A stretch of 64,000 nucleotides of DNA from Chloranthus sessilifolius. Lineage: Eukaryota; Streptophyta; Magnoliopsida; Chloranthales; Chloranthaceae. The notes under the pieces were generated by a model, which saw only the letters and a list, made by a program, of their open reading frames with translations, ran no database searches and was not told the origin of the DNA. Made by a program: the position numbers and the translations under genes. This document shows positions 2,371-64,000 of this stretch, one piece after another. Location of the stretch: the NCBI GenBank assembly GCA_021018995.1, contig CM037598.1:45438685-45502684 (forward strand), written 5' to 3'. How positions within the stretch are numbered: the first letter of the stretch is position 1; each line of letters starts with the position of its first letter.

Positions 2371-4809
2371 TGTTAGGCTATTTTAGAGTGCTTGCTACTG
2401 ACTTTATTAAAGACAGTGATAATAATGGGGTGAATGAAAATGAATGAGAGGTGAATTGAAAATGGCAAAGCAGCAAGCCTAAAATATGCACAATCCTACA
2501 AGATACAGGGCCTGTTGTAGCAAGTTTTGATAAGTAAGAGTTTGTCCCACATGGAAATTGATCTTAAGCTCCAAGGGAGCGATCTTTAGTAGGCCCTCCA
2601 GATCTGACTACAGATCTGGCAATCCTAAATGGAAGGGGATTTAGGGTTACTAAAATATAAATTCTAAGGTATCCTAATGTCTAAACTATAGAAAGGTTTA
2701 AGAGCGTAGATGGAGTGAGAAAATAAATATAAAAGGGTGAGAAGTATGCTATTAGGTTCAGATCAGATGGGCTTCATGACTCAAATTCAGATCTGCTGCT
2801 ATAGAAGTCATGTCCAGTGGCTACATTATCACCATTGAGGAGAAAGAATCCAACTCATCTCTGTGCCATGATCCAATCCCTTTATGGCTATAACCTGTCC
2901 ACTTAAATGGTCGCAGATTATCCAATTGGGGAACCACAGTCCATAGATGAGTCAGAACAAGTTTACCATTGTAGGCACTACTTCATCCAGGCTACAAGCA
3001 TAAGAATCCATAGGGAACCTCAACCTCTAAAGTGCTATGTGTGGGGCTAGGCCTGTATGGGAGCATGTTAGCCTAGACACATAGAACCAGCAAGAGTTTG
3101 AGTGCAGCCTTAGATCCAGCTGTCCACTGCTTTAGAGAGACTGCAGTGATCCAGTCACAAGCCTACAATCTCTATAACCAAACCAGATCTTCTATTTGAT
3201 GGCGGGTCTATACACATACAGGGGAGTTTATCTCAGCACAATCTCTCACAGGGCTAGAAGCACAAGTGCAGAGAAGAATAATCCGTCTTGAGTCTGTGGG
3301 TTGGCTTCACCCTCAGGCTATAACCTGTCCACTTAAATGGTCACAGACTATCCTAGAGGCTATCCTCCTCACAAAGCTCAAGATAGAACAAGAAACATTG
3401 CTGCCACCACCATGTTCACAAGGGTACAAAATCTCATTACTCCCATGGGGACTTCAGATCTAGTAGGTCCTGTGGTGGGACTAGGCCTGTATGGGAGCAT
3501 GTTAGCCCAGACACACAGGTCACTTGGATCTGAATAAACCATGAAATCAGTCCTCCATTGCTTACAATATGTCCTAGCAATGGAGGATCTCAAGATAATA
3601 GCCTTGTACAGAACAACTCACAAAAATCCCATAAAAGTAAAACACCCTTTCATGAAACTCCATTAATCTATTCCAAATAGTCATACAAAGGCATAGCCAG
3701 CAAGTGCTGGACTATGGAGAGAAGAAAAAGTAAAAAGAAAACTACCTAAAACTTACTAGAAATATGCAGCTACTACCGGAAGAAGAAGAAGATAGACTAA
3801 ATTCTATTCTAAGCAGAGAGTGTCCTCTAAACCTAAACCAGGCTTAGGTTTCTATAGTAGTTAGTTTGGCGGTGCATTAGGGTTAGGAAACCCTAATTTT
3901 AATGATGCCACATTGCCTAATATTGTCCCTTAGATGCCTCGGGGCGCATGCACGAAACATGGAGCGTTGGAATGCATGCCCTAATTGCTGAAAGTTCCCA
4001 GAATATCCTCTGCAGAGGTGAGGGAGATTTAGAGTTCAGAGCCTCACTAGGTAGTACTGGTTTCCAAGACTGCCGTGTGGTAGCACGGTCTTCGCGAGTT
4101 TGGATTATCTTGAAATTCTAGCCGTCGCGGGGTTGTCTGAGTTGCAGCTAAAACAGTCGCGTGATAGAGCATTGAATCCTCGCTGGATTGCTCTGATCTT
4201 CATGCGATTGCTCTTTCTTTTTGAATGGCTCAAGAATCGCGCGAGCAATTTATTTCTGAATGGATCTTCACGAGGACGTGATGTGCATTGGTCTCTGAAT
4301 TGCGCGAGAGGTTTTTCTGAAGTTTTGCATCCTGCGGCCACTGTGCGACAACTGCGCGCCGAAATACCTAGAGCTCTCTCTCCTTAGTTGATCTGAGTGA
4401 ATGGCACGAGGTTCGAGGGCTATGCGAGACTGCACGAGCAGTTATATTTGAGCTTCGCGAGAGCTGCATGAAGTATGATTCTGAAACCCCTCTATCACTC
4501 AACTGTGCGAGAACAGTGCGGGTAATTGGAAATGAAGTATTGGGAAACTCGTGAGGACTGTGCGAAGCGTAATTTCTGAATCCTTTAAAGCTTGTGAAAG
4601 CTGTGTGAGGTTCAATTCTTGTCTGCGTTCAGCTTTCATCCTTCTGAGGGACTTCTTGGGCAAAAGTGAGCTCCTTAACAGGGTTCAGGCCTTATTGCAG
4701 CTGCTATTTATTACCTACAGAAATGACCTAACACACATTTATTACATGGCTAAGGGTCTAACAGAGCCTAAGTTAAGGGGCGAAAAGTGGTACTTTTCAT
4801 GTCTTAACA
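2371..4809 (-). repeat. 3' LTR of X
   Basis: It runs from TGTTAGGCTA to CTTAACA and is matched along its length by the 5' LTR at 17927-24462. In the element's sense U3 begins at 4809. It holds a subterminal inverted repeat (4783-4797), the CG-motif cluster (about 4060-4560), a weak TATA region near 3855, two copies of the covarying leader hairpin (3316-3353 and 2886-2923) and an AGATCTG inverted repeat (2598-2619). The ORFs within it are not credible genes. Confidence 0.95.
4783..4797 (-). repeat. Subterminal inverted repeat of the LTR (U3 tip)
   Basis: AAAAGT and ACTTTT arms are separated by three bases, 12 bp inside the LTR end. The same structure lies at 24436-24450 (X), 32240-32254 (Y), 46946-46960 (W) and 58316-58330 (U). 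In V (35295-35309 and 56249-56263) the arms are AAAAAT and ATTTTT, a compensated change. Confidence 0.7.
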
Positions 4810-11945: not shown

Positions 11946-13124
11946 TTAGTTTAAAGAAGGATCCCCTTGACAGTGAATGATGTCGAAAAGGTCGGCAAGT
12001 TTATCAAAACAAGGCTTAAGCCTCTGACCATTCACCTTCAAGAGTCTCCCAGACTTAGGGTCCTTGATTTCCACAACACTAGATGGGGAAACTTGCATGA
12101 CAATATAAGGACCTTCCCATCTAGATTTCAATTTGCCTGGAAAAAATTTAAGTTTAGAGTTAAACAACCAAAACTTATCACCAACATTGAAACTCTTTCT
12201 CAACAGCCCTTTGTCAAAGAAAGCTTTGGACCTTTCCTTGTAGATCCTGGCATTGGCATAAGCATCCATCCTTAGTTCTTTCGATTCCGACAACTGCAGC
12301 AACCTGTGATGACCAGCAGAAGTTAGATCTAGATTTAAATGTTTGATGGCCCAATAGGCCTTGTGTTTTAACTCCACTGGGAGATGACAGGCCTTGCCAT
12401 AGATCAGTCTGAAAGGGGACATACCGATGGGGGTCTTATAGGCAGTCTTATAAGCCCACAGTGTGTCATTAAGCTTGTCAGCCCAATCCTTCCTATCAGT
12501 CCTCACAGTCTTCTCAAGGATATGCTTGATCTCCCTATTTGAAATTTCAACTTGCCCACTGGTTTGTGGGTGGTAGGGAGTAGCAATCCTATGGGTGACA
12601 GAATATTTCTTGAGCAGACTCTCAAAATTTCTATTGCAGAAATGGCTCCCCCCATCACTGATAATGGCTCTAGGGGTACCAAATCTGGAGAAGATATTTT
12701 GCTTTATGAACTTGAGGACCACCTGATTATCATTAGTTCTTGTGGCAATGGCTTCTACCCATTTGGAAACATAGTCCACTGCCACTAAGATAAAATGAAA
12801 ACCATTTGAAGGAGGAAAGGGGCCCATAAAATCAATACCCCACACATCAAACAGTTCTACAACAAGGATGGGATGTAAAGGCATTGACTTTCGTTTAGAC
12901 AGCCCCCCTAGTTTCTGTCATCTTTCACAGGCCTTGCAGTGTGTATGGGCATCTCTGAAAAGAGAAGGCCAATAGAAACCACACTGCAACACTTTGTCAG
13001 CTATTTTTCTCTCACTAAAGTGACCCCCATAAGCATTTTCATGGCACATGGCCAGAATACTGGGGATATCACTTTCGGGAACACATTTTGAATAATTTGG
13101 TCTGCACAATACTTTTACAAGCAA
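11946..13124 (-). pseudogene. Integrase of X
   Basis: The N-terminal zinc-binding HHCC region is at 12918-13124 (HENAYGGH ... CKAC). The catalytic core has Asp in VWGIDFMG (about 12840), Asp in IISDGGSHF (about 12650) and Glu in VEISNREIK (about 12535). The C-terminal domain has SRWEGPYIV and VNGQRLK, and the reading stops at 11946. The core reading 12884-11946 (312 aa) is fully open, so all three catalytic residues are kept. A stop and a frame change separate it from the zinc domain near 12890-12917. It would insert element cDNA. It was originally the last domain of the gag-pol polyprotein. Confidence 0.93.
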
Positions 13125-13132: not shown

Positions 13133-14930
13133 CTAGAAAAAGAATTTGACCTGTGAGAAAAATAGGTCTTTATCAATTTTTGTCCAATGGGAAGGGATCT
13201 TACATATAACTAGATAATTGACAATATGTGCATACCAAGGAGCTAAAGATTGGATGGCAAACAATTGCTCATCCGGGAATACATCATTTGTAGTGAGGTC
13301 ATTAACACCTTTCTCCAACATAATTCTGGACAAGTGGTTAGCCTCCACATTTTCTACACCTTTCTTGTCTTTGATTTCGATGTCAAACTCCTGCAACAGG
13401 AGTCCATCTAATCAATCTGGGCTTTGCATCCTTCTTGGATAGTAGGCACTTTAATGCTGAGTGGTCAGTGAAGATGACAGTTTTAGACCCAAGTAGGTAA
13501 GGTCTAAACTTGTCCACAGCAAAAACCACTACCAGAAGCTCTTTCTCAGTGGTTATGTAGTTCAGTTGAGCTTCAGCAAGTGATTTGCTGAGATATGCAA
13601 TGACCACAGGCAGCTTATCCTTTCTCTGGCCCAAGATAGCACCTATTTTCAAGTCAGATGCATCACACATCAACTCAAAGGGCAGGGTATAGTCAGGTGT
13701 TCGGAGTACAGGGGCAGAGGTGAGGCAAATTTTCAAAGCTTCAAAAGCCTTCAGACATTCAGTAGAGAAGTCAAAGGGCACATCCTGGTAGAGCAGGTGG
13801 CACAATGGCTTAGCAATTTTGCTGAAGTCTTTGATAAACCTCCTATAGAATCCAGCATGGCCAAGGAAGGATCTAATTTGCTTGACTGTTCTTGGAGGGG
13901 CTAGATTTTTAATGAGGTCAACTTTGGCCTTGCCTACCTCAATTCCATCTTTAGAGACAACATGGCCCAACACAATTCCTTGTGTTACCATGAAGTAGCT
14001 CTTCTCCCAACTTAAGACCAAATTGGTCTCTTCAAATCTTTGTAGGACTTGATGGAGGTGTTGTAGACATTGATCAAAGCTATCCCCATAGACCGAAAAG
14101 TCATCCATGAAAATTTCCAAGAATTTGTCAATCCTATCAGAAAAAATGGCATACATACACCTCTGAAAGGTGGCTAGGGCATTACACAGTCTAAAAGGCA
14201 TCCTTCTGTAAGCAAAGGTGCCAAACGGACAAGTAAATGTTACTTTCTCTTGATCAAGGGGGTGCACAGGGATCTGAATGTACCCTGAGTACCCATCAAG
14301 AAAGCAGTAAAAAGCCTTCCCAGCCAACTTGTCCAAAATTTGATCAATAAAAGGGAGAGGGAAGTGGTCTTTTCTGGTCTTGGAGTTGAGTTTTTGATAA
14401 TCGATGCAAACTCTCTAGCTAGTGGTCTCCCTGGCTGGTTTCAACTCTCCAGAGTCAGTTTTGATCACTGTTATGCCAGATTTATTGGGTACCTCCTGGA
14501 TTGGTGCCACCCATTCAGAATCAAAGATGGGATAATTTACCCCAGCATCCAGTAACTTAATGATTTCTTTCAGAACCACCTCTTGCATGTGAGGATTAAG
14601 TTTCCTCTGCATTTTCCTGGAGGGTGTTGAGCCCTCCTCTAGATTAATCTTATGCATACAGATTGATGCATCAATTCCTCCTAGATCAGCAATGGTCCAG
14701 CCTATTGCTTTCTTATGCTTCCTCAAAACATTCTTGTGCTTCCTCAAAACAGTTAGCAACTCCTCCTCTTGCTCACTGGTAAGAAAGGAGGAGATAATCA
14801 TGAGAAGTTTCTCTTCTTTCTTGAGGAAAGCATATTTTAATGTCTCTGGCAGCTTCTTGAGCTCTAGATTAGGGGCTTGTTGTATGGATGGCAGGATTGG
14901 TGTATTGTTGGATGGAGGAAGGGGCAACAA
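13133..14930 (-). pseudogene. Reverse transcriptase and RNase H of X
   Basis: The N-terminal RT segment (14415-14930) ends in a stop where a TGG codon is expected before RVCIDYQKLN, and the same frame reopens at once. The palm has the catalytic box IFMDDFSVYGDS (about 14110) and the thumb SFLGHAGFYRRFIKDF (about 13850). RNase H follows with MCDASD, TEKELL and FTDHSALK, so its acidic residues are present. A one-base deletion near 13390 shifts the frame just before the EFDIEIKDKKG connection to integrase. Together these enzymes copy element RNA into DNA. Damage is light: one nonsense codon and one frameshift. Confidence 0.92.
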
Positions 14931-17592: not shown

Positions 17593-17901
17593 GCACACAC
17601 ACCAACAGTAGGGAAGACTATTTGCAGGCACATTGCACTTAAAAACAAATGAAACTATCCTAATCAACTGCTATGCTATGGAATCTTCAAATGAGAAATA
17701 GACTGAGTTTTGAGGGTTAGAGAAGTGCAAACAGAGGTAGCTAGACTCCCAATGCAATTCTACTCTCCTTCTCTGCTACGGTCCAAATCTGAAAGAAAAT
17801 TTTCAAATGTAAATCAGCAGTATCAATTATTCACAAGTACAACTACCAAAGAATAAAGAATCAAAAAAATAAAAATCTAGAGTCTACTAAAAGATCAACA
17901 T
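17593..17901 (-). other. Untranslated leader between PBS and gag (X)
   Basis: About 310 bases between the PBS and the gag ATG, AT-rich and without credible coding. A similar leader precedes gag in Y (29237-29552), Z (33018-33342) and V (37476-37789). Confidence 0.6.
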
Positions 17902-17920
17902 CCCCGGCAATGGCACCAAA
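17902..17920 (-). promoter_or_regulatory. tRNA-Asp primer-binding site (X)
   Basis: The element-sense sequence is TGGTGCCATTGCCGGGGAT. The complement of the 3' end of plant tRNA-Asp is TGGCGCCGTTGCCGGGGAT, so there are two mismatches. It lies 6 bases from the LTR end and primes minus-strand DNA synthesis. tRNA-Asp priming is typical of Athila-type elements. Confidence 0.9.
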
Positions 17921-19239
17921 AACTTTTTACGCTATTTTAGAGTGCTTGCTACTGACTTTATTGAAGACAGTGATAAGAATGGGGTGAATGAAAATGAATG
18001 AGAGGTGAATTGAAAATGACAGAGCAGCAAGCCTAAAATATGCACAATCCTGCAAGATACAGGGCCTGTTGTAGCAAGTTTTGATAAGAGTTTGTCCCAC
18101 AGGGAAATTAATCTTAAGCTCCAAGGGAGCCATCTTTAGTAGGCCCTCCAGATCTGACTACAGATCTGGCAATCCTAAATGGAAGGGGATTTAGGGTCAC
18201 TAAAATCTAAATTCTAAGGTATCCTAATGTCTAAACTATAGAAAGGTTTAAGAACGAATATGGAGTGAGAAAATAAATATAAAAGGGTGAGAAGTATGCT
18301 ATTAGGTTCAGATCTGATGGGCTTCATGACTCAAATTCAGATCTGCTGCAATAGAAGTCCTGTCCAATGGCTACATTATCACCACTGAGGAGAAAGAATC
18401 CAACTCATCTCTGTTCCATGATCCAATCCCTTTATGGCTATAACCTGTCCACTTAAATGGTCACAAATTATCCAATTGGGAAACCACAGTCCAGAGATGA
18501 GTCAGAACAAGTTTATCATTGCAGGCATTACTTCATCCAGGCTACAAGCACAAGAATCCATAGGGAACCTCAACCTCTAAAGTGCTATGTGTGGGGCTAG
18601 GCCTGTATGGGAGAATGTTAGCCCAGACACATAGAACTAGTAAGAGTTTGAGTGCAGCCTTAGATCCAGCTGTCCACTGCTTTGGAGAGACTGCAGTGAT
18701 CCAGTCGTAAGCCTACAATCTCTATAACCAAACCAGATCTGCTATCTGATGGCGGGTCTATACACATACATGGGAGTTTGTCTCAGCACAATCTCTCCCA
18801 GGGCTATAGGCACAAGTGTAGAGAAGAATAATCCGTCTTGAGTCTGTGGGTTGGCTTCACCCTAAGGCTATAACCTGTCCACTTAAATGGTCACAGACTA
18901 TCCCAGAGCCTATCCTCCTCACAAAGTTCAAGATAGAACAAGAAACATTGCTGCCACCACCATGTTCACAAGGCTACAAAAGCTCATTGCTCCCATGGGG
19001 ACTTCAGATCTAGTAGGTCCTGTGGTGGGACTAGGCCTGTATGAGAGCATGTTAGCCCAGACACACAGGTCACTTGGATCTGAATAAACCATGAAATCAG
19101 TCCTCCATTGCTTGCAATATACCCTAGCAATGGAGGATCTCAAGATAACAGCCTTGTATAGAACAACTCACAAAAATCCCATAAAAGTAAAACACCCTAT
19201 CATGAAACTCCATTAATCTATTCCAAATAGTCATACAAA

Positions 19240-21975: not shown

Positions 21976-21977
21976 TA

Positions 21978-25130: not shown

Positions 25131-25178
25131 CATCACATTCTCCACTCCATTCTTATCTTTGATCTTAAGATCAAACTC

Positions 25179-27330: not shown

Positions 27331-29236
27331 TTTTGGTGTGGTAATGGACATGACTGACTCAACATGCTCAACAGTAAAAACTCTTTTAGACAACTATACC
27401 CTTGCTTTCCTCTTTTATGTGCAGAGGTCCTTCAAAAACTTAGCATAGACAGGGAATTGTTTTATGGAACCAAGCAATGATAAAATAATCCTGACCTGCT
27501 TGAAACTCTCTAGCATTTCCTCCATTTGAGCATCCCTTTATCAAGAGGGGATGGGCCAGCTACTGCTTGAGGAAAGGGCAGCTATGGCACTGCTGGTGCC
27601 ACTGCTGCATGCCTATTAACATCATGGTCATATTTTTGTCTTTTTCTTTTATCTTTATTTATTGTTTGATGTTGGGGCTCAAGATCAGCCCCATTATTTT
27701 ACCCTAGCTGATCCACAACAGGGGGTACAATCCTTGGCTCTTCAATACTAATAATTCTTTTATTTTCATTTTCATTTTTCATGAACTCCTTAGTTACCTT
27801 GCCCACACGATTATCAACCACTCTCCCACTCCTAAGGGTAGTGATAGCATTAGCATCCTTATTGGTAGAGGCCGCTTCTTCAATATGATACTACCCTTTG
27901 GGGTTGGTCAAGGGCTGACTAGGCAATTTTCCTTCCTCCCTCCTGTTCAAAGCATTAAAAATCTAACCCAACTGGTCTGCAATCTTCTTGATGCTCTGTC
28001 CATGAGAGTTGACAGTCTGTACCAGGTTCCCCAAATTTTGCATGGAAGCTAGCATATGCTCTTTAAATGAAGAGGATCAAGGCTGTTATGGGGGTAAGGC
28101 TAAGTGGTTAGACTGTGGGGCAGGTAACATAAAATTTTTCCTTGGTGAGTAACCTTGATTAAACTGGTGCTGGAGTCTGTAAGGAGCTACCGCTTATTGT
28201 TGTTGGGGTTAAGCATATGAATCTTGTCTCCACCTCAGGTTTGGGTGGTTCCTCCAAGAATACCCAGCAGGCTGCTGCCGAAACGTTTGTGCAACATTGA
28301 CATGCTCCATAAAAAAATTAGGAAACTGATTGGCAGATGGACAATCATGAATAGAATGTGTGACATTGGCATATTAGACATGCTTCCTCCACCTATGCAA
28401 CGATCTAGGGTTGTATCACATTCATTAATTTGTCAAATTTTAAGGATAAATCGTCCACCTTCCTCTCTAAATCACCTTGCACCTTAACTTCATATATTCC
28501 ACCTCTAGGGGTGGCCTCTTTTACCATCTTAGCTAGGGTCTGGCTGTCATTGCATGACAGGGACTCCTCCTGCACGGAATTTTCTCCTATTATGTCAAAC
28601 AACTCCCAAGCTTCCTCAGTTGTCTTGTGGAGGTAGCTACCACCACATGAAGCATCCACCATATCCGTGCTCTTAAAATTAATTCCTTGCTAGAATACTT
28701 GCACTAGTTGCCACATTAGAATTTGGTGTTGGGGGCATTGTTTTAACATCTCTTGGAATCTTTCCCAAGCTTCATAAAAATTCTTAGTTGAGGACTGAGT
28801 AAATGACAGAATACTTGTCCTCATCTGGCTGGTTTTGTTCATGAGAAAGAATTTGGCCAGGAAGTTGGTTTGAAGGTCACTCCATGATTGTATGTTGTTG
28901 GCCAGGAAGTTGCTTTGTCCTTTAGTGAAAAAGGAAAAAGCCTCAATTTAGTGGCCTCAGGTCCCAAGCCAGCAATATTGAAAGTAGTGCAAAGTGCCAA
29001 AAATTGGTCGATATGCTTGTAAGGATCTTGTTTACTAAGCCCATGAAATGAAGGCAGAAGGGAGAGGTGTACTCCCCAGGTGTATTATACTCCTTTAATG
29101 TTCTCTGCCTCTGAGCCATGATAGCAAGTTCAGTTGCAACAGCAGGGCCCTGTGTGGGGTGTCTAGGTCTAAGGATCCTTTCAACCTCTAGATTTGGAAG
29201 TTCTAACTCAGGGTTTAAGGACCTTCTACCATGCAT
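27331..29236 (-). pseudogene. Gag of Y
   Basis: The start MHGRRSLNPELELPN at 29236 matches the other gag starts. Next come QRTLKEYNTPGEYTSPF and a gag core remnant with MVDASCGGSYLHKTTEEAWELFDIIGEN (28662-28405). A Gln-rich part is degraded by stops. Frames change several times and the middle (about 28670-28940) is readable only in pieces. Confidence 0.85.
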
Positions 29237-29552
29237 ATACTCACACCCACAGTAAGTAAAGAGAATGCTCACAAGAACAAAAAAAAAATTTCAAACAAAA
29301 ATTAACAACTACATAGATTTACACTAAACAAATAATAGGGAATTAAACATAAATGGACTGAGATTTAGAGGAAAGGAAATGCAAAGAGAGCTAGCTAGAC
29401 CCCAGCTGCAACTCTAGGTTTTCCCTACTTCTGCTGTCCATTTCTACAAAATTCTAAAAAATATTAGTAATACTTTATTCTAGATTAGACACAGCTACAA
29501 ATAATTTGGAAGTCTAAGTTATAGTACAACTTAGGTCTACTAAAAAGATCAA

Positions 29553-29571
29553 TATCCCCGGCAGCAGTACC
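29553..29571 (-). promoter_or_regulatory. PBS of Y (decayed)
   Basis: Element-sense TGGTACTGCTGCCGGGGAT, four mismatches to the tRNA-Asp complement. It lies next to the LTR end at 29579. Confidence 0.8.
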
Positions 29572-30102
29572 AAAAACTTGTTGTCGTTCTGGATGTGCTG
29601 ATTTATTATGTGGTGTTGGAAGAGAATTAAAATCAAAGTGAAACAAAGGATAAAGATATGGTGAAAACAGTAATCCTAAAACATCCTAGACCTGCAAGAT
29701 ACAGGGCCTATTGTAGCAAGTTTTGATAAGTAAGAGTTTGTCCCACAGAGAAATTGATCTAGAACCCAAAATGGGCTATAATAGTAGGTCTCCAGATCTG
29801 GCTATAAAACTAAAAATCCTCGAAGAAAGGGAGTTGGGTGTCACGACTACACTAAATTAACCCTAACAAAAGAGAAATAAAGTACAGCCCTATCTTAAAA
29901 AAAGGGTTAAGAAGAATATGGTGATGGTGTGTGCCAAAATAAAATATAAAAAAGATGGGAAGTAAGCAGGTTAAGCTAGAGTTAATGCAAAATGTAACTC
30001 AGATTTAGACTGTCTCTGCAGTGGTCCTTGCTGAGATGCTATTAATAACCACAATAAGGTAGAAGAATCCAATTTAACCCATGCCATTTGGGGTGCTCTT
30101 AG

Positions 30103-30140
30103 GGCTAAACTCTGTCGACTCCAATGGTCACAGAGTATCC
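30103..30140 (-). repeat. Leader hairpin, Y copy 1
   Basis: A 38-nt imperfect hairpin: nine-base outer arms, a two-base GA bulge, a CCA/TGG-type inner stem and a six-base loop. Relative to X, pair 6-31 is C-G (X: G-T) and pair 7-30 is T-A (X: T-G). Copies: X 2886-2923, 3316-3353, 18436-18473, 18866-18903; Y also 30617-30654; Z 33864-33901, 33973-34010, 34370-34407; V 36891-36928; W 48532-48569, 49048-49085, 53020-53057, 53537-53574; T 63046-63083, 63467-63504. Confidence 0.8.
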
Positions 30141-31184
30141 GATAGAGTCTGTCAAAACTCATTGATTAAACTAAAAATGCTAACCTAATCCAAAGGAGTG
30201 GACTAATCATTTCCCCAATCAATGAACCAGATCAGGCCACGAATATTATTGCAGACACTATGTAATGCCAGTGCTACAAGCTCCCCAGATCTATGCACAG
30301 ATCTGGCTGACATCCATAGGTATTCTAACCCATAAAGTCCTAAGTGCTTTGCCAGGCCAATGGCTCACTTTGCCCATACAAAGGACTAGCAACAGGTTGA
30401 ATAAGGATTTAGATTTTGATGGTCATTGCTATAAACGGCCTGCAATGACTCAGCCTCAAGCTACAATTACTACAGAAAAATCATATCTAACATCTGTTAT
30501 TGGTCAAGTAAAACAGAGTGGAGCCAGTTCCTGTACAAATCTCCTAACAAGGCTCTAAAAGCTCATGTGCAGACGAGAAGAATCCTTCTCAGACATGTGG
30601 CTGGACACTACCTTAGGGTTATACTCTATCCACTCAAATGGTCATAGGGTATCTAATTGGTCTGTCCATACCACAAAGATCTGAGAAAAAACATATAAAC
30701 TGTTGCTGCCACCATGGAGTCTCAGGGCTACGAGCTCTCCAGATTTGGCTACAGATCTGGCATTCTATCAATGGGTCTATTAAACTAAGGGAAATCAGAT
30801 GGTAAACAATAGATCTGCTAGAAACTGAATGGGCTAGTCCCAAAGCATGAATCCTATAGACATCTAAGGAAACTATAGGGTGTATAGATTCAATTAGTTA
30901 TTAAAACAATAATCCATTGATAAAAGCAAAACTTACAATGAACTATCTCAAGGCTACAGCCTGTACACAATTACTCATCCAAAAGATTCCAATGTATATA
31001 AAACCTATTACAAAATTAAAATAAAACTAAACCTAGCTGCTTATAAAAGGATTACCTAGCCAATGATAGGCTAAGAGAGAAGAAAAATTAGAAAAAGAGA
31101 TGATTAAACCCTAACCCTAGCCTGCTAGAGCTCTCAGTCGACAGAGAATGAAGGAAAGATGAAAATACTAAGCTCTAAGTATAG

Positions 31185-31192
31185 CTTATATA
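31185..31192 (-). promoter_or_regulatory. TATA box of the Y LTR
   Basis: Element-sense TATATAAG directly downstream of the U3 CG-motif cluster. Equivalent boxes: Z 34845-34852 (TATATAAG), W 47996-48003 (TATATAGG), T 63988-63995. Confidence 0.65.
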
Positions 31193-32266
31193 CTCTATCC
31201 ATAAGGCCTTGGCTCAAAAGTGATTAACCCTAATTTTTCCAACAAACATGACACTATTACAACCCTTGAATGCTTTGCGATGTGTGCCTCAAAATCTATG
31301 CCTCAGGAAGTGTGCCCTAGCCTTGGTAAATTCCCAAAAGATCCTTGAGTTAGGGTTGAGAAGTGGAGAGCTCGAGCTTCGTGGGGCTGACATCTGTATT
31401 AATTCACTTGCGCAGTGGCAGAGCCTTCGTAGAGAAGCATTTGGCTTAGGAGGATTGTTCACTCGTGCGGTAGATTCTCAATTATTCGTACAGCTGATTT
31501 ACACTATAATATTGTCGCGAAGGAGATTTGGGAATGCCTGGATTTCTCGCACAGTAGAGCTTTAGAAGTTCACTCTCACTGGATACTCGCACAGGTAGGC
31601 TCCTGCGCTCGTGTAATAACTGGTTAGGCTTTAGAGTGCGCGAGAGCTGTGTGAGGAAAATTTTGGGCGCCTCTCTTTTCTAGTGGTTCGTGAGAACTCT
31701 GCGAGGTGACAAATTGTTCTTAATGCAGATGGACTCGCTATGTTCTGTGTGCAGCTGCTTTAAGACTCGATCTCCGCGAGAGCTTCACGAGCATAAATTC
31801 TGAGGGTTTTAATACGCGAGATCTTCGTGATATCTTTACTGCTCTCCTCTTGACTACGTGTCCTATTTGCCCGAGGGCAGCTTTCACTGCATCCTTAGCT
31901 CTGCAAGGGAGCTCCTCAACTCTGCGAGGTGAGTCTTTGGATTCTCTGATTCATTGCACTTGCTGCTATTGCAGCTTCCTCCATTCTCAGCTAACTTCTT
32001 TCATCTGCTAGACTTTTGGTCAATGATGACAAGCAAATGAGTTACCATGGTGAAAACTACTAGGGTGTTCAATTAAGCTTTGGCTCAGCTGTCATCTTTG
32101 CATGTTGTTTTTCTCTTCTTTGAACCAATAAGCAGGGATTTTGTATTTAGCTCCATAGCTTATTACTAACTACAAAACACACTTAGCAAATGATTATTAG
32201 TGAGCTTTAATGTCCAGCAAAAGCTAGGTTAAGAGGTGAAAAGTGGTACTTTTCAGTGAATAACAC

Positions 32267-33017
32267 TCTTGCTATATAGAATTTTCACTTATAACATCAA
32301 ACAGCTCCCATGCCTCATCAGCAGTCTTATGGAAGTAAGTACCCCCACATGAGGCATCCACCATATTCGGACTCTTGGGATCAATTCCTTAGTAGAAGCT
32401 CTGGACAAGCTACCACTCAGGAATTTGGTAGTAGGGACATTGTTTCAAGAGTTCCTTAAACCTTTTCTACGCTTGATGAAAGTCCTCAGTTGGGAATTGA
32501 GCAAAGAAAACTATGCTCTTCCTCAACTGGCTAGTTTTTTATATTGGAAAAAATTTAGCCAAAAATTAGCTTTGGAGATCATTCCATGACTATATGCTGT
32601 TTGCTGGGAGCGTGGAAAGCCAACTTCTGGCTCAATCCTTTAATGAAAAAGTAAAGAGCCTCAGTTTGGTGGCTTCCTCTCCTACGCCAACAATGTTGAA
32701 TGTGGTGTACAAAACTAAGAGCTCATCAATGTGCTTATATGGGTCTTCTTTACTAAGCCCATGAATGCTGATAGTATTTGAATAATGGATGATTTAATCT
32801 CATAGTTGCCTTGAATAGTAGGGAAAGCAATGCAGAAAGGGGAGGTATATACCCCTGGTGCATTGAATTCCTTTAATGTTCTCGGTTGCTCACCCATCTC
32901 TACTACAGGCTCAGTATCCACAGTAGGGACTTATGTGGTTTTCCTAGGTCTAAGGGTCCTCTCAATCTCAGGATTTGGAGGTTTTAAATCAGGGTTGAGG
33001 GACCTCCTCCCCTGCAT
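32267..33017 (-). pseudogene. Gag N-terminal part of Z
   Basis: The start MQGRRSLNPDLKPPNPEIER at 33017 is followed by a TAA about 28 codons later. The frame 32921-32715 has QPRTLKEFNAPGVYTSPFCIAFPTIQGNYEI. Pieces of the gag core (readable as VDASCGGTYFHKTADEAWELFDVI) reach the Y insertion at about 32280. It is decayed by several stops and frameshifts. Confidence 0.85.
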
Positions 33018-33342
33018 GCACACACACAATAGCAAATAAAGAACACACAAATAGATCACTTAAAGAATTTAGAAACAAAAAGAACTGCTAATTAGTACTA
33101 CTGAGCTACTAAAAGTCAATACAACAAAAATGGAACTGAGATCTGAGGGGAAAGAAATGCAAGCTAAAGGTAGATAAGCTCTAGCTGCAGTGCTAGCTTT
33201 TCCCTTTTTTTGTTGTCCAATTTTGCAAAAGCCAATACAAAAATCAATAGTACTTTTTATTGAAAAACAAAAAATAGGTACTGCAACAAATGAGCATAGT
33301 ACACTAAAAAAAAACTATACTCAGGTCTCTTAATTAGATCAT

Positions 33343-33361: not shown

Positions 33362-33368
33362 AAAAACT

Positions 33369-35282
33369 TGTTGTCTACTTTATGCTGGCAAAATTTATTG
33401 CAAAATGGATGGTTAAAATATAGTAGAAAATAAAGTGAAATTGAATAGATTTCAGCACAAAGTACAGCCTGCAAGATATAGGGACTGTTGTAGCAAGTTT
33501 TAAAGTAAGAGTTTGTCCCACAGGGAAATTGATCTAGAACCCATAAGGGGTTATTTAGTAGGCCTCCAGATCTGGCTACATATCTGGCAATCCTAAATAA
33601 AGGGAATGTTTTGGGGTGTCACAACTAAAACTAAAACTAAAATAGGAAATAAAATGCAGTCTTATACTACAGAAATTTTAAAGAAGGTTGACGGTGTGGT
33701 AAAATAACAAAAATAAAATGATGAGAAGTATGCAGCTAAGGTCACATCAGTCATGCAAGTCAGATCTAGAGTTGTCTCTATAGTAATCCTTTAGATGGCT
33801 ACAAGCACATCTGCAAGGTAGGGGAATCCAACTCAACTTATGTGATTTAAATTGGTCTCTTAAGGGTATAATCTATCCACTTAAATGGTTACAAACTATC
33901 CAAGGGAGAGGATCAAATCACAAAGATTAAATAAGAAAACTAACCTAATTTAAGAGAATGGATTGATCTTAAGGCTATAGCCTGTCCACTTAAATGGTCA
34001 CAAACTATCGAAGGGATTTCCTCCAGTCAAATGGGCCAAATCAGAACATGAACACCATTGCAGGCACTATGTTTGCAAGGCCATAAGCACATGCATTCAT
34101 AGGAACAAATAGCTCTTGAAAAACCAATGGAAACCACAGTCATTCATTTGTTGTTTGGGAATCTAGAATCAGTTGGTCATTGCTACAAAAGGCCTGCAAT
34201 AACTCAGCTCACAAGTCTACAATCTCTACACAAGATCAGAGCTAAGAGTTTGGTGATGGAAATGAAAAACAGAGGGTGGCTTGTCTCTGCAACAATCTCT
34301 CACAAGGCTATATGCTCAAGTGTAAAGAAGAATAATCTATCTCAGATCTGTGGTTTGAACCAGCCTTAGGGCTATAGTCTGTCTACTCAAATGGTCACAG
34401 GCTATCCCAGGGGTTATCCAAATCACAGATGGCTGAGAGAGATAGAACAAGTAAACTGCTACTATCACTATTGTTGCAAGTCTACAAGATCAAACAACAA
34501 TGGGAGCATCAAATCCAAATTGATTTATGTTAAAAGCATAGATAAATAAGGATTCAATCAAACTATAAAAATAGCATTTCATTGCATAAAAGAGACATAC
34601 AATGGTGCCCTCATGACAACAACCTGTGCTGAGCAAACCAGAACATCTCCTGAAATTTATAAAAAACCCCTTGCAAAATTGAAGTAACTACCTAACTGTT
34701 TACAAAAAGGACTTAGCCAGCAAATGCTGAGCTAGGGAGGGAAACAAGATGAAGAAGATGACCTAATCCTAACCCTAATCTGACCAAAGCTCTCAGCCAA
34801 ATTTAGGTTGAGGAAAAGATGAAGTTTCTGTTAGAACATTATAACTTATATACACAAGTCTCTTACTGCCTTGGCCAATAGGAGCACAGAAGAGAATACC
34901 CTAATTTTTCTTAAAGACGTGGCCCAATGGTGACCCTTGGATGCCTCGAGATGTATGGAATCAATGAGAACCTCGGGATGTGTGCCCTAGAAGTTGGGAA
35001 ATCCCTAAAGTGTCCCTGTGTATGGACTGAGAAGTGGGGATCCCGAGCTTCACATGGATGAGAGCTGTATTTTGGCCTCTCGTGAAGCTGTCACATGGCT
35101 GATATTGTAGTTGAATGAGCTTCGCGAGGTATCTTTTTCATTGACTAGCATAGCTCATGCAGATGGTTCTCCAGATGGCTCGAGTTGTGATGCTCTCCCT
35201 GGGTTGCATTACGTCGCACCAGGCTGTCGTGAGAATGAGTTTGAGCTGTGCGTGATTGATCGTCAGGATGGGCTGCACCTCT
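33369..35282 (-). repeat. 5' LTR of Z, U3 truncated by V
   Basis: It begins TGTTGTCTAC on the plus strand. It holds three leader hairpins (33864-33901, 33973-34010, 34370-34407), more than the other LTRs, a TATA box at 34845-34852 and the beginning of a CG-rich U3 cluster (35060-35270). It is cut at 35282 by the 5' LTR of V. Confidence 0.88.
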
Positions 35283-37450
35283 TATTGAGAAATGAAAAAT
35301 ACCATTTTTCACCTCCTAGCCTAACCTTTGATGGACCTTTAAGTTGACTAATAATGTGTTTTGAGTGTATTTTATAGATAAGCAATAAATTACAATCTTA
35401 GTGTAGACATCCATCTAAAAGTGCCAAGGAAGAGATTTGCTGCCTCATCATCGGATCATGCAGCCTAAAAAGCCAGCTAATCAAATAGTTTATAGAGCCT
35501 CAGAGCTCCATGGCAATGACATGTGTCCACATGGGCACACATGGGAGCAAGACCAGCTGCATTTAATGAAGGTTGAATCCCTCAAGAGCTACTGTGTGCT
35601 GACAGATGAAGGACAACACCTCAAGGAGGTTTACTAGTTGTGGAAGCAAAGGATAGGACCTGTCGAGAGGTCACTCCAAGCTGTCAAGTGGTTGGGGTGT
35701 TTAAATATAGAGTTGTAGAGAGGTCCCCACAACCTGTCGAGGAGTAAAAGGTGAAGGAAGCAACCTGTCGAGAGGTTTCAGAGATGCATTCCAAGCTGTC
35801 AAGAGGTACTGAGGTAGAAATGTGAAGATCTCGAGAGGTTGACAAAACCTGTCGAGAGGTTAGAGTTGCAGCAGAAGAACCTATTGAGGACTTACCTGAA
35901 GCTGCATTTAATTGCATGAGGTTGAATCAACCTATTGAACAGCAGAGAAGGACCTGTCGAGCACTCAACTAGAGCTGTATAAGAAGTCGACAGGTTGGAT
36001 TATAACCTGTCGAGGGGTTGGCTAGAGCAAGGACAGCAGGTAGATTTTACTGTCAATCCTGTCGACTAGTTCAACTGAACCTGTCGAGAAGTCAAGCAAC
36101 CTATCAAAAGCCTACTTCAACCTGTCGGGATGTAAACACCAAGTGGACTCAGAACCTATCGAGAGGTTCCCTGAACCACTCTTGACATTTGAATTGGGAA
36201 CTTCTCAGTTCCTGCCACAGCTGCTGCTCCACTCTAGAACTCTATGCACACATTCCAAGGCACTTTAACAACCCATGGGGGGTATTTTTGGAACCTAAAT
36301 GGGTGTAAAATGGGAACCTCCTAGCCACCTCACATATACTTGTCCAGTTTGGACCAATTGGAGGAGAGTTTCTAGAAGAAAAATTTGCCACATCAGCAGC
36401 TCAGAATCACAGAATTATTTCCTTGAGCTCTAATTGCCTGAAACTAATCTGAGGACAGAGGGGAAGACTATAAAGGCCTGAAATATTTATAAAGCTACTA
36501 TCTAGAAATTGGGAGAACCAGAGCCAAACTCGAATTCTCAAAATTCCTTCCCTCTTTCTTCTTTTCCATTCATTCTTTAGACCAACCATGGTTTGCTAAA
36601 CCACTTTAGTAGCTAGGGTAAGGTTGAGAGCTATAAATTGAGAGGTTCAAGGCTTTGTATGGGATTGGATGTTGCACAGATTGCAAATCTGAGCACATTG
36701 TATTGAAAGTTTGTATTGAATAAGTACATTGTGGATTTTAGAGTTGATTTTGATCTATAAATCTCTTGTTTGCATTTGATTTCCCTAGATTAAATCTCCT
36801 TGTGGATGCTTGAGCATATAGCCTTACATCCATAGCATCTGCAATAGTTTAATTGTTCTAATTAAGACCCTCGAATTAGAGGAATCTCTGGGATGATCTG
36901 TGACCATTCAAGTGGACAAATCATAGCCTTAGGACCTCTCCAATTCTCTGATCGGGGTTAGATTCTTATACCTTGCATCTGAGCTTGTAGCTAGATGAAG
37001 GATTGTTGCAAATTAGTTCCTTGCCATGCCTTTGATCTAACCAATTATTAGTTAAAGACTAAAACCCCTAGCTATTATTCTCCCTCTTATGATTTTAATA
37101 TTTTTCTCTATTTCCTTAAATTTGTGTTTTAATCAGTTTTGGATCATTTGCTTTTATCTTTAATTTTCTATAGTTTTAGTAAAGTGACAACCCTCAAAAA
37201 CCTCTCCTCTTTCCTTTGTTGGTTTAGTTTAAATTAGGATAGAGTGCCAGATCTGTCATAGATCTGAAGATTTACATCATTTTAAAGCACATTTCCTTGT
37301 GGGCATACCCTTACTTACCCATTAAAGCTTGCTGTAATACCCCTGGTTCTTGCAGGACTGATTGCTTACCTTGATCCCACTTCTTTGTGATTTGTCCTTT
37401 TAATTTGCTATTTTTAATCCTTTAATAATTGCAAGGTAAGCAACACAACA
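35283..37450 (+). repeat. 5' LTR of V
   Basis: 2168 bp. The tip reads TATTGAG where the 3' copy has CGTTGAG, so the original was TGTTGAG. It contains the inverted repeat 35295-35309, a cluster of about fifteen AACCTGTCGAGAGGTT-type motifs (35657-36180), a likely TATA box TATAAAGG at 36469-36476 and one leader hairpin (36891-36928). It ends CACAACA. Confidence 0.92.
36469..36476 (+). promoter_or_regulatory. TATA box of the V LTR
   Basis: TATAAAGG about 290 bp downstream of the last U3 motif. TTTATAAAG at about 36489 is an alternative. Confidence 0.5.
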
Positions 37451-37456
37451 AGTTTT

Positions 37457-37475
37457 TGGTGCCGCTGCCGGGGAT
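37457..37475 (+). promoter_or_regulatory. PBS of V
   Basis: TGGTGCCGCTGCCGGGGAT, two mismatches to the tRNA-Asp complement. Confidence 0.9.
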
Positions 37476-46933: not shown

Positions 46934-49581
46934 TGTTATTCACTTAAAAGTACCACTTTTCACCTCTTAACCTAGCCTTTGCAGGACCTTGAAGCTTACT
47001 AATAATCATGTTTTAAGTTTGTTTTGTAGTTAGCAATAATCTGTGCAACTTAATACAAAATCCATTCTTATTGGTCCAAAGAAGAGAGGGAATACATGTA
47101 AAGATGGTAGTCGAGACAAAGTCTAATGAAACATCTGGTAGTGCTCACCATGGTGATTTAGTTGCTGGTCATCATCGACCAAAAGCATAACAGATGGAAG
47201 AAGTTAGCTGAGAATGGAGGAAGCTGCAATAGTAGCAAATGCAATGCATCAGAGTGACAAAAGAATCATCTCGCAGAGTTGAGGATCCCCCTCGTGAAGC
47301 TAATGATGCAGTGAAAGTTTCCCTCGCACAGATCGATTGCATAGTACAGAGGAGAATAGAAAAGACATCGTGAAGATATCATAGTTTTTAACATCTCAGA
47401 ATTTGTCCTCACAAAGATCGCGCCCAAAGCAGCTGCACGCAAAACATAGCGAGTTCATATGCACAAAGAACAATTTGTCACCTCGCTGAGTTCTCACGTA
47501 GCCAAAGAAGGGAGAGATGCCCAGAATTTCTCTCGTGCAACTCTTGCACACCCTGAGCCTAATCAGTTACTACATGAGCACAGGCGCCTTATTGCGTGAG
47601 AACTCAGCGAGAGAGAGAGCTTCTGAAGCTCTATCTACGCGAAGAGTCCTGGCACTCCAAATCAACTCCGCGATAGCAAGGCAACGCAAATGAATTGCGT
47701 GATGAATCGAAGATGGACTGCGTGATTAAGAACTGCTCACCAGCTAAAGGCTGCTCTGCGATAGCTCTGCAACTGCGTGAATGAACTAATGCAGATGCCA
47801 GCCCCACAAAGCTCGGGCTCTCCACTTCTCAATTTTAACTGAAGGACTTTTTGGGAATTTTCCAAGCCTAGGGCACACTTCCTGAGGTGCGAATTTTGAG
47901 GAGCATATCTCCTGGCATCTAAGGGTTGAAACAGTGTCACGTCTACGGGAAAAATTAGGGTTAATCTCTTCTGAGCCAAAGCCTTATGGATAAAGTATAT
48001 AGGATATACTTAGAGATTATTATTTTCATCTTTCCTTCATCCTCTGTTGGCTGAGAACTCCAGCAGGCAAGGGTTAGGGTCTAATCATCTATTTTTCTTA
48101 TTTTTCTTCTCTTAACCCAGCACTTACTGGGTAACCCCTCCGTAAGCATCTAGGTTTAGTTTTATTTCAGTTTGTAATAGGTTTTTGGTATACATAGGGA
48201 TTGTGGATGAGCAGTTGTCTACAGGCTGCAGCCTGGAGACAGTTCATTATAAGTTTTGTGTTCATCAATAGATTGTCGTTTTAATGCCTAATTGAATCTA
48301 AAGATCTTATAGTTTTTTTAGATGCATATAGGATCCATATATTTGGGACTAGCCCATTCAAGTTCTAGTAGATCTATTATTTACCATCTGATTTCCCTTG
48401 GTCTGATAGCCCCATGGAAAGCAATTCTGGATATGTAGTGAGATCTAGAGAGCTCGGAGGCCTGTAGACCATGGTGGTTACAACAATTTTCATGTTCTTT
48501 CTCAGGCCTCTGTGGTATAGACAGACCAATGGGATACCCTGTGACCATTCAAGGGGATAGAGTATAGCCTTAAGGTTGTGTCTATTCACATGTTTGAGAA
48601 GGATTCTTCTCCCTGCACATGAGCTTCTAGAGCCTTGTGAGGAGGTTTGTACAGGAACTGGCTCCTCTCTGTTTTACCTAGCCGACATCAGATGTTATAT
48701 CTGATCTCTTTGTAGTAATTACAGCTTGAGGCTGAGTCATTGTAGGCCATTTATAGCAATGACCAGTTTAATCTAAAGCCTTATTCAACCTGTTGCATGA
48801 TCCTTTTTGTGGGCACTAGTGAGCAGTTAGCCTTAGCAAAGCACTTAGGATATTATGGGTTGAAATACCAATAGATGTCAGCTAAGTCTGTGTGTAGATC
48901 TGGGGACCTTGTAGCACTGGCATTACATAGTGGTACAATAGTATTAATGGCTGGATCTGGCCTAGTGGTTGGGGGAATGATCAGTCCACTCCTCTAGGTT
49001 AGATTGGCAATGTTTATTTTAACCGATGGGATTTGACAGACTCTATCGGATACCCTGTGATCATTAAAGTGAACGGAGTATAGCCCTAAGAGCGCTCCAA
49101 ATGGCATGGGTTAAATCGAATATTTTTACCTTGTTGAGGCTTTTAATAGTGCCTCAGCAAGGAACATTGCAGAGACAGACTAAATCTGACTTACATCACT
49201 GATCTCTCCCTAGCTGTTTACTTCTCCATATTTTATCTTTATTTTATCACACATGTCGTCATCCTTCTTCACCCCTTTCTTTAGCTGTAGTTTATTCTTG
49301 TCTTTTCTTAGTTTTTAGTATAACTTAGTGACACCTAAACACCCTCTCTTTAGAGTTACCAGATCTGTAGTTAGATCTGGAGACTACTATACAACCCTCG
49401 AGGTTTCAGATCAATACTCTCTGTGGGACAAACTCTTTCTTATCAAAACTTACTACAATAAACCCTGTATCCTGCAGGTCTAGGAGTACTCTAGTTGTGC
49501 TGAATCAATTCTTTTATTTTACTTTGTTTTTAATTAGTTTCCACCACATAATAAACTAAGGCACAACTAGAATTCCCAACA
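46934..49581 (+). repeat. 5' LTR of W
   Basis: 2648 bp. Inverted repeat 46946-46960, CG-motif cluster about 47270-47780, TATA 47996-48003, leader hairpins 48532-48569 and 49048-49085. It ends AATTCCCAACA. Confidence 0.93.
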
Positions 49582-52352: not shown

Positions 52353-54070
52353 TGTTATTCACTGAAAAGTACTATTTTTCTCCTATTAACCTAGCCTTTG
52401 CTGGACCTTGAAGCTCACTAATAATCATGTTTTAAGTTTTTTTTATAGTTAGCAATAATCTGTGCAACTTAATACAAAATCCATGCTTATTGTTCCAAAG
52501 AAGAGGGAGAATACATGTAAAGATGACAGCCGAGCCAAAGTCTAATGAAACATCTGGTAGTGATCACCATGGTGATTCAATTGCTGGTCATCATAGACCA
52601 AAAGCCTAGCAGATAGAACAAGTTAGTTGAGAATGGAGGAAGCTGCAACAACAGCAAATGCAATGCATTAGAGTGACAAAAGAATCATCTCGCAGAGTTG
52701 AGGATCCCCTTTGCGAAGCTAATGATGCAGTTCATTGTAAGTTTTGTGTTCATCAATGGATTGCCATTTTAATGCCTAATTGAATCTAAAGATCTTATGA
52801 TTTTTTTAGATGTCTATAGGATTCATGTATTTGGGACTAGCCCATTCAGTTTCTAGTAGATCTTTTGTTTACCATCTGATTTCCCTTGGTTTGATACCCC
52901 CATGGAAAGCAATGTTGGATCTGTCGTGAGATTTAGGGAGCTCGGAGGCCTGTGAACCATGGTGGTTGTAGCAGTTTTCCTGTTCTTTCTCAGGCCTCTG
53001 TGGTATGGACAAACCAATGGGATACCCTGTGACCATTCAAGTAGACAGAGTATAGCCCTAAGGTTGTGTCCATTCACATGTTTGAGAAGGATTCTTCTCC
53101 CCTATACATGAGCTTCTAGAGCCTTGTGAGGAGGTTTGTACAGGAACTGGCTCCCCTCTGTTTTACCTAGCCGACATCATATGTTAGATCTGATCTCTTT
53201 GTCGTAATTGCAGCTTGAGGCTGAGTCATTGCAATCTATTTGTAGCAATGACCAGCTGAATATAAAGCCTTATTCAACCTATTGCATGGTCCTTTTTGTG
53301 GGCACTAGTGAGCAGTTAGCCTTAGCAAAGCACTTAGTATCTTATAGGTTGGAATACCTATGGATGTCAGTCAGGTCTATGCACAGATCTGGGGAGCTTG
53401 TAGCACTGGCATTACATAGTGCTGCAATAGTATTCATGGCTGGATCTGGCCTAGTGGCTGGGGGAATGATCAGTCCACTCCTCTAGGTTAGATTGGCAAA
53501 GTCTGTTTTAACCAATGAGATTTGACAGACTCTATCGAATATCCTGTGACCATTAAAGTGGATAGAGTATAACCATAAGAGCACCCCAAATGGCATGGGT
53601 TAAATCAGATATTTTTATCTTGTTGAGGCTTTTAATAGCGTCTCAACAAGGAACACTGCAGAGATAGACTAAATCTGAGTTACATCACTGATTTCTCCCT
53701 AGCTGTTTACTTCTCCATATTTTATCTTTATTTTATCACACATGTCATCATCCTTTTTCACCCCTTTATTTAGTTGTAGTTTATTCTTGTCTTTTCCTAG
53801 TTTTTAGTATAGCTTAGTGAGACCTAAACAACCTCTCTTTAGAGCTACCAAATCAGTAATCTGATCTGGAGACTACTATACGACCCTCGAGCTTTCAAAT
53901 CAATACTCTCTGTAGGACAAACTGCTACTTATCAAAACTTGCTACAATAGACCCTATATCTTGCAAGTCTAGGGGTACTCTAGTTGTGCTGAATCCATTC
54001 TTTTATTTTACTTTGTTTTTAATTGGTTTCCACCACACAATAAACTAAGGCACAGCTGGAATTCCCAACA
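52353..54070 (+). repeat. 3' LTR of W with a 931-bp internal deletion
   Basis: 1718 bp. It matches the 5' LTR but lacks the segment equivalent to 47312-48242; the join is at about 52729. CAG is present at both deletion ends. The missing part holds most of the CG-motif cluster and the TATA box. Hairpins at 53020-53057 and 53537-53574 remain. Confidence 0.92.
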
Positions 54071-62552: not shown

Positions 62553-64000
62553 TGTTGTCGACTTCAAGTGTGCTTCGCTTATTGGTTGGTGTTGAAAATT
62601 AATTAAAAACCAAAAATAGAATAGAACAGGGAATGAATCAGCACCACCCAGAAATCCTAGACCTGCAAGATACAGGGTCCTTTGTAGCAAGTTTTGATAA
62701 GTAAGACTTTGCCCCATAGGGAAAGGTGATCTAAGGCTCCAAGGGAGCCGTCTCTAGTAGTCCCTCCAGATCTGTCTACAGATCTGGCAGTCCTAAAAGG
62801 AGGGGAGTTTGAGGTCACTTATTCTAAGTATTCTAATAACTAGATTACAGAAAGGATTGAGAGGATGGATGGAGTGTGGAAAATAATTATAAAAAGGTGA
62901 GAAATATATTTTTGAGCCAAGATCAGAGGAGTTCTTACAACTCAGATTTAGATCTGATATTATAGAAATCCTGTCCAGAGGCTACATTATCACCTCTGAG
63001 GAGAAAGGATCCAACCCATCTCTACTGCCATGACTCCACCCTTAAGGCTATAACCTGTCCACTCGAATGGTCACAGACTATCCCATAGGGGAGCCACTAT
63101 CCAGGGATGGGTCCGAACATAACAGATAAATCATTGTAGGCACTATTTCATCCAAGCTACCAGCTCAGGAATCCATAGGAAACCTCAACCTCTAAAGTTC
63201 CATATGTGGGACTAAGGCTGGAAAACCATGATAGCCTGCATACATGGAACCAGCACCTTTGATCCAGCTGTCCATTGCTTAAGAGAGGCTACAATGGTCT
63301 AGTCACCAGCCTACAATCTCTATAACCATATCAGATCCAACATCTGATGGCAGATTTATACAAATATGGGGGAGTCTGCCTCTGTACAATCCCTCACCAA
63401 GCTTCTACAAGCTTAGGTGAAAAGAAGAAGGATCCATCTTGGATCGGTGGATCAGAATCACCCTAAGGCTATAATCTGTCCACTTAAATGGTCATAGACT
63501 ATCTCAGAGGTTATCCTCCTCATGGAGCCCAAAACAAAACAAGATTGTCGCTGCTACCACCATGTTCACCAGGCTACCAGCGCAAGCTCCCATGGGGATT
63601 TCAGATCTAGTAGGTCATGTGGTGGGGCTAAGGCTGGAAGACCATGATAGCCCAGACACACAAGTTACTTGGATCTGAGTGGCCCTTAAAAACAGTCCTC
63701 CATTGCTTTGAAACACAGCCAAGGCAATGAAGGATCACAAGGCAGCAGCCTTGCACAGAGCATCTCACAAATAAACAGCAATCCCACAAAGTATAAATCC
63801 TATTGCAAAACTTCCATTAATCTAACTCAAATACATATACAAGTCATAGCCAGTAATTGTTGGACTATGGAGAGAAGAAAAGAAAAAGAAAAATAAAAAG
63901 AAAAACTACTTACTGCTAAAAAAGAAAGAGAAAAGAAAAGCGATCTGAGATAGGTTCCCAGATACCTAAACCTAAGCTAGGCCTGGGTATATATAACAGT
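62553..64000 (-). repeat. LTR of element T (incomplete at window end)
   Basis: Begins TGTTGTCGACTTC on the plus strand and aligns with the leader half of the X LTRs: AGATCTG inverted repeat 62766-62787, hairpins 63046-63083 and 63467-63504, TATA 63988-63995. It interrupts the U aORF; CTTAC (62548-62552) should be its target copy. Its U3 lies beyond the window. Confidence 0.85.

Follow-up and report, generated by a model that had tools for sequence, protein, structure and literature searches.

The packaging signals (Psi) of retroviruses and hairpins of their R region such as HIV TAR are stem-loops in RNA leaders with a conserved loop and bulge; TAR has a six-base loop with the bulge a few pairs beneath it. 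In plants, the LTRs of Sireviruses (Ty1/copia) contain repeated inverted repeats, palindromic motifs with a CGG-CCG core that the available part of one report places upstream of the TATA box (PMC2829016). Calypso and Diaspora are described in the accessible text of another as having a tRNA-Asp primer site (PMC1142308). In the open-access literature that we searched, as far as its text was available, we found no description at the level of RNA structure of genomic RNA selection by plant Ty3 elements.

Here we describe a repeated stem-loop, the tip of a long rod, in a 64,000-nt stretch of DNA from Chloranthus sessilifolius, the whole of which we refer to as the window. Like Psi and TAR, it is a predicted leader stem-loop with a conserved loop and bulge, and, as in TAR, the tip of the rod has a six-base loop separated from the bulge by a few pairs. 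Whereas TAR stands at the very 5′ end of its RNA, the first rod hairpin lies 422-538 nt after a TATA-like box. Unlike Psi and TAR, the rod occurs in one to three copies per LTR and has a plant host. It resembles the Sirevirus motifs in being a repeated inverted repeat of plant LTRs, but the rods belong to Ty3-type elements, follow the predicted TATA box rather than preceding it, and differ in core. With Athila, Calypso, and Diaspora, the elements that carry the rod share a tRNA-Asp-like primer site just past the LTR, a long LTR, and a long leader, as described in the available text of PMC1142308. The words "hairpin" and "secondary structure" are absent from that text of the Diaspora paper (PMC1142308), and we did not find the repeated rod described in the open-access literature searched, within the portions available.

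Hairpins recur in eight LTRs of the window

Similarity blocks revealed a window packed with nested LTR retrotransposons, in which eight LTRs bear the hairpin. Those at 2370-4809 and 17924-19244 are the LTR pair of element 1 (95% identity across 1,325 nt); the others are designated X, Z, V, W1, W2, and U, with W2 and U classed as LTRs by similarity alone. A primer-site-like sequence follows X, Z, V, and W1. X (about 29585-32266) is the 5′ LTR of an element whose gag/pol-like sequence lies below it on the (−) strand; V is likewise a 5′ LTR, belonging to a (+) element that shows pol similarity at 39509-43261. Judging from similarity blocks at 1694-2368, 2370-24462, and 24462-29056, element 1 is seemingly nested within the integrase gene of the X element, and the 5′ LTR of element 1 appears to be interrupted by an insertion at ~19245-23313.

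In element 1, a reverse transcriptase and RNase H (13383..14414, (−) strand; PF00078, PF17917, PF17919) are followed on the same strand by an integrase (11946..12917; PF00665), which is the Ty3 (Metaviridae) order. Among the integrase relatives listed, those with names are mostly plant Ty3-type proteins, e.g., from Malus, Tanacetum, and Prunus. Two long ORFs beside gag-pol, at 9588-10850 (−) and 44415-45845 (+), had no Pfam match and so no env-like or Athila ORF1 domain. This absence is not decisive, since pfam03078 is reported in only 16% of Athila elements in the available text of PMC6317226. From the pol order and the tRNA-Asp-like primer site, we read the host elements as Athila/Calypso-like Ty3 LTR retrotransposons.

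We scanned both strands with an ungapped 38-mer, using the copy at 3316..3353 as the reference. The scan bore out an initial count, made by a sequence-only reading, of 16 copies in eight LTRs, with 29-38 of 38 positions matching the reference. Unrelated sites reached at most 21/38 and, among the sites listed, those at 22/38 were the opposite strands of the hairpins themselves. Z holds three copies, V one, and the other six LTRs two each, spaced 109-517 nt apart within an LTR. On the (−) strand, the first copies in element 1 are at 3316..3353 (3′ LTR, the reference) and 18866..18903 (5′ LTR, 38/38), and the second copies at 2886..2923 and 18436..18473 (36/38 each). Also on this strand are the first and second copies of X, at 30617..30654 (29/38) and 30103..30140 (31/38, called Y in the sequence-only reading); the first, second, and third copies of Z, at 34370..34407 (33/38), 33973..34010 (35/38), and 33864..33901 (33/38); and the first and second copies of U, at 63467..63504 (35/38) and 63046..63083 (36/38). 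The (+) strand carries the sole copy of V, at 36891..36928 (32/38), and the first and second copies of W1, at 48532..48569 (31/38) and 49048..49085 (30/38), and of W2, at 53020..53057 (32/38) and 53537..53574 (30/38). The interval to which the hairpin had originally been assigned, 30103-30654, contains only two of the 16 copies.

As the reverse transcriptase/RNase H and integrase of element 1 share the strand of the copies, the hairpin as originally written corresponds to the sense strand of the element. Primer-site-like sequences lie on the same strand as the hairpins and downstream of them. The G-T pairs had led us to suspect a hairpin antisense to the element, which the orientation of pol ruled out. 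An Rfam scan of 17800-35500, which includes 7 of the 16 copies, returned no match at E up to 1 overlapping any hairpin. A weak covariance-model match at 30940-30992 (−) (13.8 bits, E 0.69) is perhaps a decayed extra copy, or chance.

The core is abundant throughout the genome

The 18-nt core GACCATTNNAGTGGACAG has 40,035 exact matches in the 2.17-Gb genome (32 contigs, with the window on contig C15), and its reversed control has zero. Patterns with open helix letters gave 20,952, 29,264, and 42,123 genome matches. When twenty 10-kb stretches were sampled at round genome positions, 10 copies were found in seven of them. Ten exact matches to the core on contigs of viruses and prokaryotes were set aside as chance, their agreement with the covariance model being limited to the searched word.

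Copies for comparison were drawn from several sources. An open-pattern sample took in 100 matches, the first of the 42,123 in the genome; all of them lie on contig C1. A set of 80 copies combined the 16 from the window with 24 from other loci, 20 picked by hand, and 20 taken along the list of exact core matches. The hand-picked copies came from the pattern lists, were chosen for varied helix letters, and may favor well-paired tips; the arms of the chosen copies were unseen at the time of choice. A 29-copy alignment held the 16 window copies and 13 of 26 from other loci. One further copy, at 6431-6491 (−) of locus L011, contains an indel, was found by the covariance model only (57.5 bits), and lies outside the 80-copy set.

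The hairpin is the tip of a longer rod whose arms changed together

Folding with flanking sequence placed the 38-mer at the conserved tip of a rod of ~100-120 nt, with ~45 nt per arm. The 38-nt hairpin first proposed is real, but it is the tip of a far longer rod, and the strongest evidence comes from the arms of that rod. In X, the rod arms span about 30572-30699 for the first copy and about 30058-30185 for the second. Arm sequences vary by family while pairing is kept, as in CUCAGA/UCUGAG in X and ACUCAUCU/AGAUGAGU in element 1.

Swapping arms between copies provides an alignment-free test of co-pairing. Own arms beat the swapped mean in 28 of 29 copies; for the first X copy (30617), the own-arm duplex was −36.2 kcal/mol versus a swapped mean of −14.3. 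The exception was the second Z copy (33973; own −12.7 versus swapped −15.0). When the 80 copies were grouped into 20 clusters with a mean arm identity of 0.58, own arms averaged −21.41 versus −15.68 kcal/mol for swapped arms and beat the swapped mean in all 20 clusters (0 of 20,000 permutations), the own 3′ arm being the single best partner in only five. When 36 clusters were used, own arms beat the swapped mean in 30 and the own 3′ arm was best in six; for 10 clusters, these numbers were 10 and four. The advantage was absent at six control positions shifted by 130-230 nt, assayed in seven representatives.

Of 20 representatives folded with RNAfold, 11 formed the tip and 14 the arms. Compared with shuffles, folding energies gave a mean z of −1.85 for the sense strand and −1.43 for the antisense strand, energies alone being weak evidence. 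The arm swaps argue strongly for a selected stem-loop structure in which the two arms have changed together. Since arms that changed together in evolution point to a maintained fold, the rod has probably been kept as a folded RNA; both the swaps and the covariation described below support the initial proposal that a folded structure is maintained.

The strongest covariation falls on predicted base pairs

The tip comprises a UUNNAG loop, a two-base GA bulge, an AG bulge, and helices of 3 and 9 bp, all near-fixed in sequence. Among the 80 copies, the unpaired bases T17, T18, and A35 were present in all 80, A21 and G22 in 79, and G12 in 78. The fourth loop base was a purine in 76 of the 80 and in 98 of the 100 copies of the open-pattern sample from contig C1. 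The UUNRAG loop may resemble a T-loop or U-turn; our literature search, within the text available, yielded no matching loop description.

The sequence-only reading had cited base changes at pairs 5-32, 6-31, 7-30, 10-27, and 14-25 as compensatory. On re-checking the window copies, we found that the base states named at these pairs had been read correctly. It had been omitted that 7-30 is unpaired (C.A) in 6 of the 15 distinct window rows and that 1-38 and 15-24 are unpaired in three. In these 15 rows, 10-27 and 14-25 show one double change each. Paired cells amounted to 91.4% versus 87.8% in shuffles (1 of 500 as high), and the covariation score was 0.218 versus 0.141 (0 of 500); four pairs had a double change, a number matched in 75 of 500 shuffles. 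Across the 29 copies and the extended structure, 91.2% versus 81.7% of cells were paired and the score was 0.316 versus 0.142 (0 of 500 each), and registers slid by 1-3 positions gave 32-40% paired.

We assessed covariation in the 80 copies over 62 columns with our own imitation of R-scape, not R-scape itself, using a null in which substitutions were placed randomly on trees built from the arms or from the arms plus core. The top four of 1,891 column pairs were all predicted base pairs: 7-56, outside the 38-mer (E 0.0017); 17-44, which is pair 5-32 (E 0.013 and 0.02 on the two trees); 18-43, which is pair 6-31 (E 0.093 and 0.12); and 6-57, outside the 38-mer (E 0.38 and 0.35). The all-pairs E is <0.05 for two of these four and exceeds 0.05 for the other two. 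The column pairs ranked fifth and sixth, 1-56 and 1-7, are non-pairs (E 0.8-1.6). In the open-pattern sample (first 100 of 42,123 matches, contig C1), 5-32 and 6-31 had the highest mutual information among 120 column pairs, with states AT 65, GC 32, AC 2, and GT 1 at 5-32 and GT 50, AT 27, GC 16, CG 5, AC 1, and TC 1 at 6-31.

Of the five proposed compensations, covariation thus upheld 5-32 (E 0.013-0.02) and, more weakly, 6-31 (E 0.09-0.12), and did not extend to the other three. Pair 7-30 varies without covarying, both in the 80 copies (TA 42, CA 17, TG 14, CG 4) and in the first 100 open-pattern matches (TA 53, TG 32, CA 9, CG 5, GC 1). U.G and C.A pairs are similar in shape, and our guess is that a wobble-like pair may be what is kept there. 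At 10-27, AT occurs in only 2 of 80 copies versus AC in 9, and at 14-25, TA occurs in one of 80.

Arm pairing favors the sense strand

Antisense arms likewise pair better with their own partner (0 of 20,000), as in any inverted repeat. The sense-minus-antisense energy was more negative for own than for swapped arms with 36 clusters (−3.54 versus −1.92 kcal/mol; 21 of 20,000) and 20 clusters (−3.85 versus −2.31 kcal/mol; 411 of 20,000); with 10 clusters (−3.44 versus −2.15), the difference was not significant (2,776 of 20,000). Over 18 tip and outer pairs in the 80 copies, G.U-type cells numbered 98 versus 69 of A.C type, a weak bias. At individual pairs, TG versus CA counts were 14 and 2 at 8-29, GT versus AC counts were 9 and 9 at 10-27, and 7-30 and 1-38 were frequently A.C or C.A. 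As recent sense-strand changes in eight copies of one family showed no C>T excess (C>T 43, G>A 52), the G.U excess is not explained by mutation bias. On these sequence comparisons, we conclude with moderate confidence that the element acts as RNA rather than DNA.

The hairpins fall within a predicted leader

The hairpins had been proposed to lie downstream of TATA boxes, and predicted boxes were indeed found upstream of them in 12 of 16 LTRs. These TATA-like boxes precede the first hairpin by 422-538 nt, in a count that was made without a chance control and includes several LTRs from one family. In the window, they occur in X at 31185..31192 (−), 538 nt before the first hairpin; in Z at 34845..34852 (−), 445 nt before the first hairpin; and in V at 36469..36476 (+), 422 nt before its hairpin. 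Among the remaining LTRs, two had no box in the search range and one had only a far box beyond an insertion; in L011, TATA-like boxes lie at 343 and 235 nt. Another candidate TATA box, TTTATATTTATT at 18269-18289, is downstream of both hairpins; we rejected it, as it is near the LTR end and X, Z, and V have clearer boxes upstream.

For the primer site, we searched with a string taken to represent the tRNA-Asp type. Sites with 13-17 of 18 matches to this string were present in 7 of 16 LTRs, 536-568 nt past the start of the last hairpin. They include those of the X element (29555..29573 (−), 15/18), element 1 (17901..17919 (−), 17/18), and the V element (37456..37474 (+), 17/18). LTRs without a scored site are truncated, are 3′ LTRs, or are out of range. 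With a TATA-like box upstream and a primer site downstream, the hairpins therefore lie within the predicted leader.

The 12 LTRs examined contain 4-12 ATGs between the predicted start and the first hairpin. In a splice-site scan made without a chance control, with the TATA position of element 1 assumed, 6 of 12 LTRs had donor-like sites 134-158 nt downstream of the TATA box, and 8 of 12 had TTGCAG 377-421 nt downstream of the last hairpin. At 31080-29690 (−) and equivalents, donor-like sites stand close to where the leader is predicted to start, and a conserved ...TTGCAGG stands close to the end of the LTR; such sites could be the two ends of a leader intron with the hairpins inside it. A segment of ~61 nt near the LTR end (29691-29751 (−) and equivalents) is among the parts best conserved between families. 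Several LTRs contain a second short hairpin, CAGATCTG with partner AGATCTGG (18130-18180 (−) and 30720-30760 (−)), and many copies of a ACCTGTCGAGAGGT-like motif lie upstream of the V promoter at 35640-36160 (+).

Discussion

We give roughly even chances to the reading that, in Athila/Calypso-like Ty3 elements, the rod is a structured RNA element of the leader (predicted R region) and a protein-recognized tag on the full-length RNA. The stem-loop would perhaps serve as the element's own recognition tag. Transcription would start from the upstream TATA box, the rod would form in the transcript, and a protein, either the element's Gag or one from the host, would recognize the tip, with the arms merely holding it out. 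Fixed unpaired bases in the tip and arms that keep only their pairing form the pattern expected of a protein-read tip on a stem, and a protein that binds as an array would be well served by one to three copies per LTR. Since the rod precedes the primer site and may sit inside a removable leader segment, its likeliest job, one step further from the data, would be to single out full-length genomic RNA as destined for packaging or export and not for translation. The place before the primer site, together with donor- and acceptor-like sites on both sides, suggests a mark of unspliced RNA. A more elaborate version, which we consider improbable, is a modular repeated tag in which a fixed tip is carried on interchangeable rods in a spliceable leader segment, such that only unspliced genomic RNA carries the tag. 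If true, such a tag would be a plant equivalent of the packaging signal of retroviruses, arrayed and present in tens of thousands of copies. Loop-loop dimerization was considered but left aside, as self-complementarity of the middle loop bases is present in some copies (TA, CG) and absent from others (AA, CA). The 40,035 exact cores with their co-varying arms offer a testable candidate signal and a huge set of natural variants for mapping binders.

The rod could instead act in the RNA during translation, in the passage of ribosomes through an ATG-rich leader, or in removal of a leader intron. The 4-12 leader ATGs would fit the former and the donor-like sites (6 of 12 LTRs) and TTGCAG (8 of 12) the latter, and plant pararetroviruses reportedly shunt via leader hairpins (PMC5902531). 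We nonetheless think such a role unlikely, as shunting requires a short ORF that ends just before the stem, the splice sites were scored without a chance control and with an assumed TATA position in element 1, and, according to the accessible part of the Diaspora paper, introns upstream of gag had not been reported (PMC1142308). A role in DNA, as a cruciform or dyad site at which host proteins regulate the LTR, has a precedent in the repeated palindromic motifs of Sirevirus LTRs (PMC2829016, PMC10760457, both available in part), and the antisense arms co-pair too. However, the Sirevirus motifs are upstream of the TATA box and the present hairpins downstream of the predicted one, sense folding is moderately favored, and diverged arms with kept complementarity ill suit a sequence-specific dyad site, although a cruciform would fit; we regard action as a DNA palindrome as quite unlikely. 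Reverse transcriptases fold back on hairpins, and template switching or arm-to-arm copying in reverse transcription would yield coordinated changes without selection on the fold. This origin of the arm match seems to us very unlikely, because copying would tend to generate perfect helices, yet the GA bulge, the AG bulge, and an internal loop persist, and, within the tip, it is the unpaired bases that are most fixed.

Elsewhere in the window, a cluster of CGATTAATCG-type inverted and direct repeats is present at 20484-21222, and a segment at 28721-28826 (+) matches the plant snoR71 family of Rfam below threshold (35.7 bits versus a gathering score of 40).
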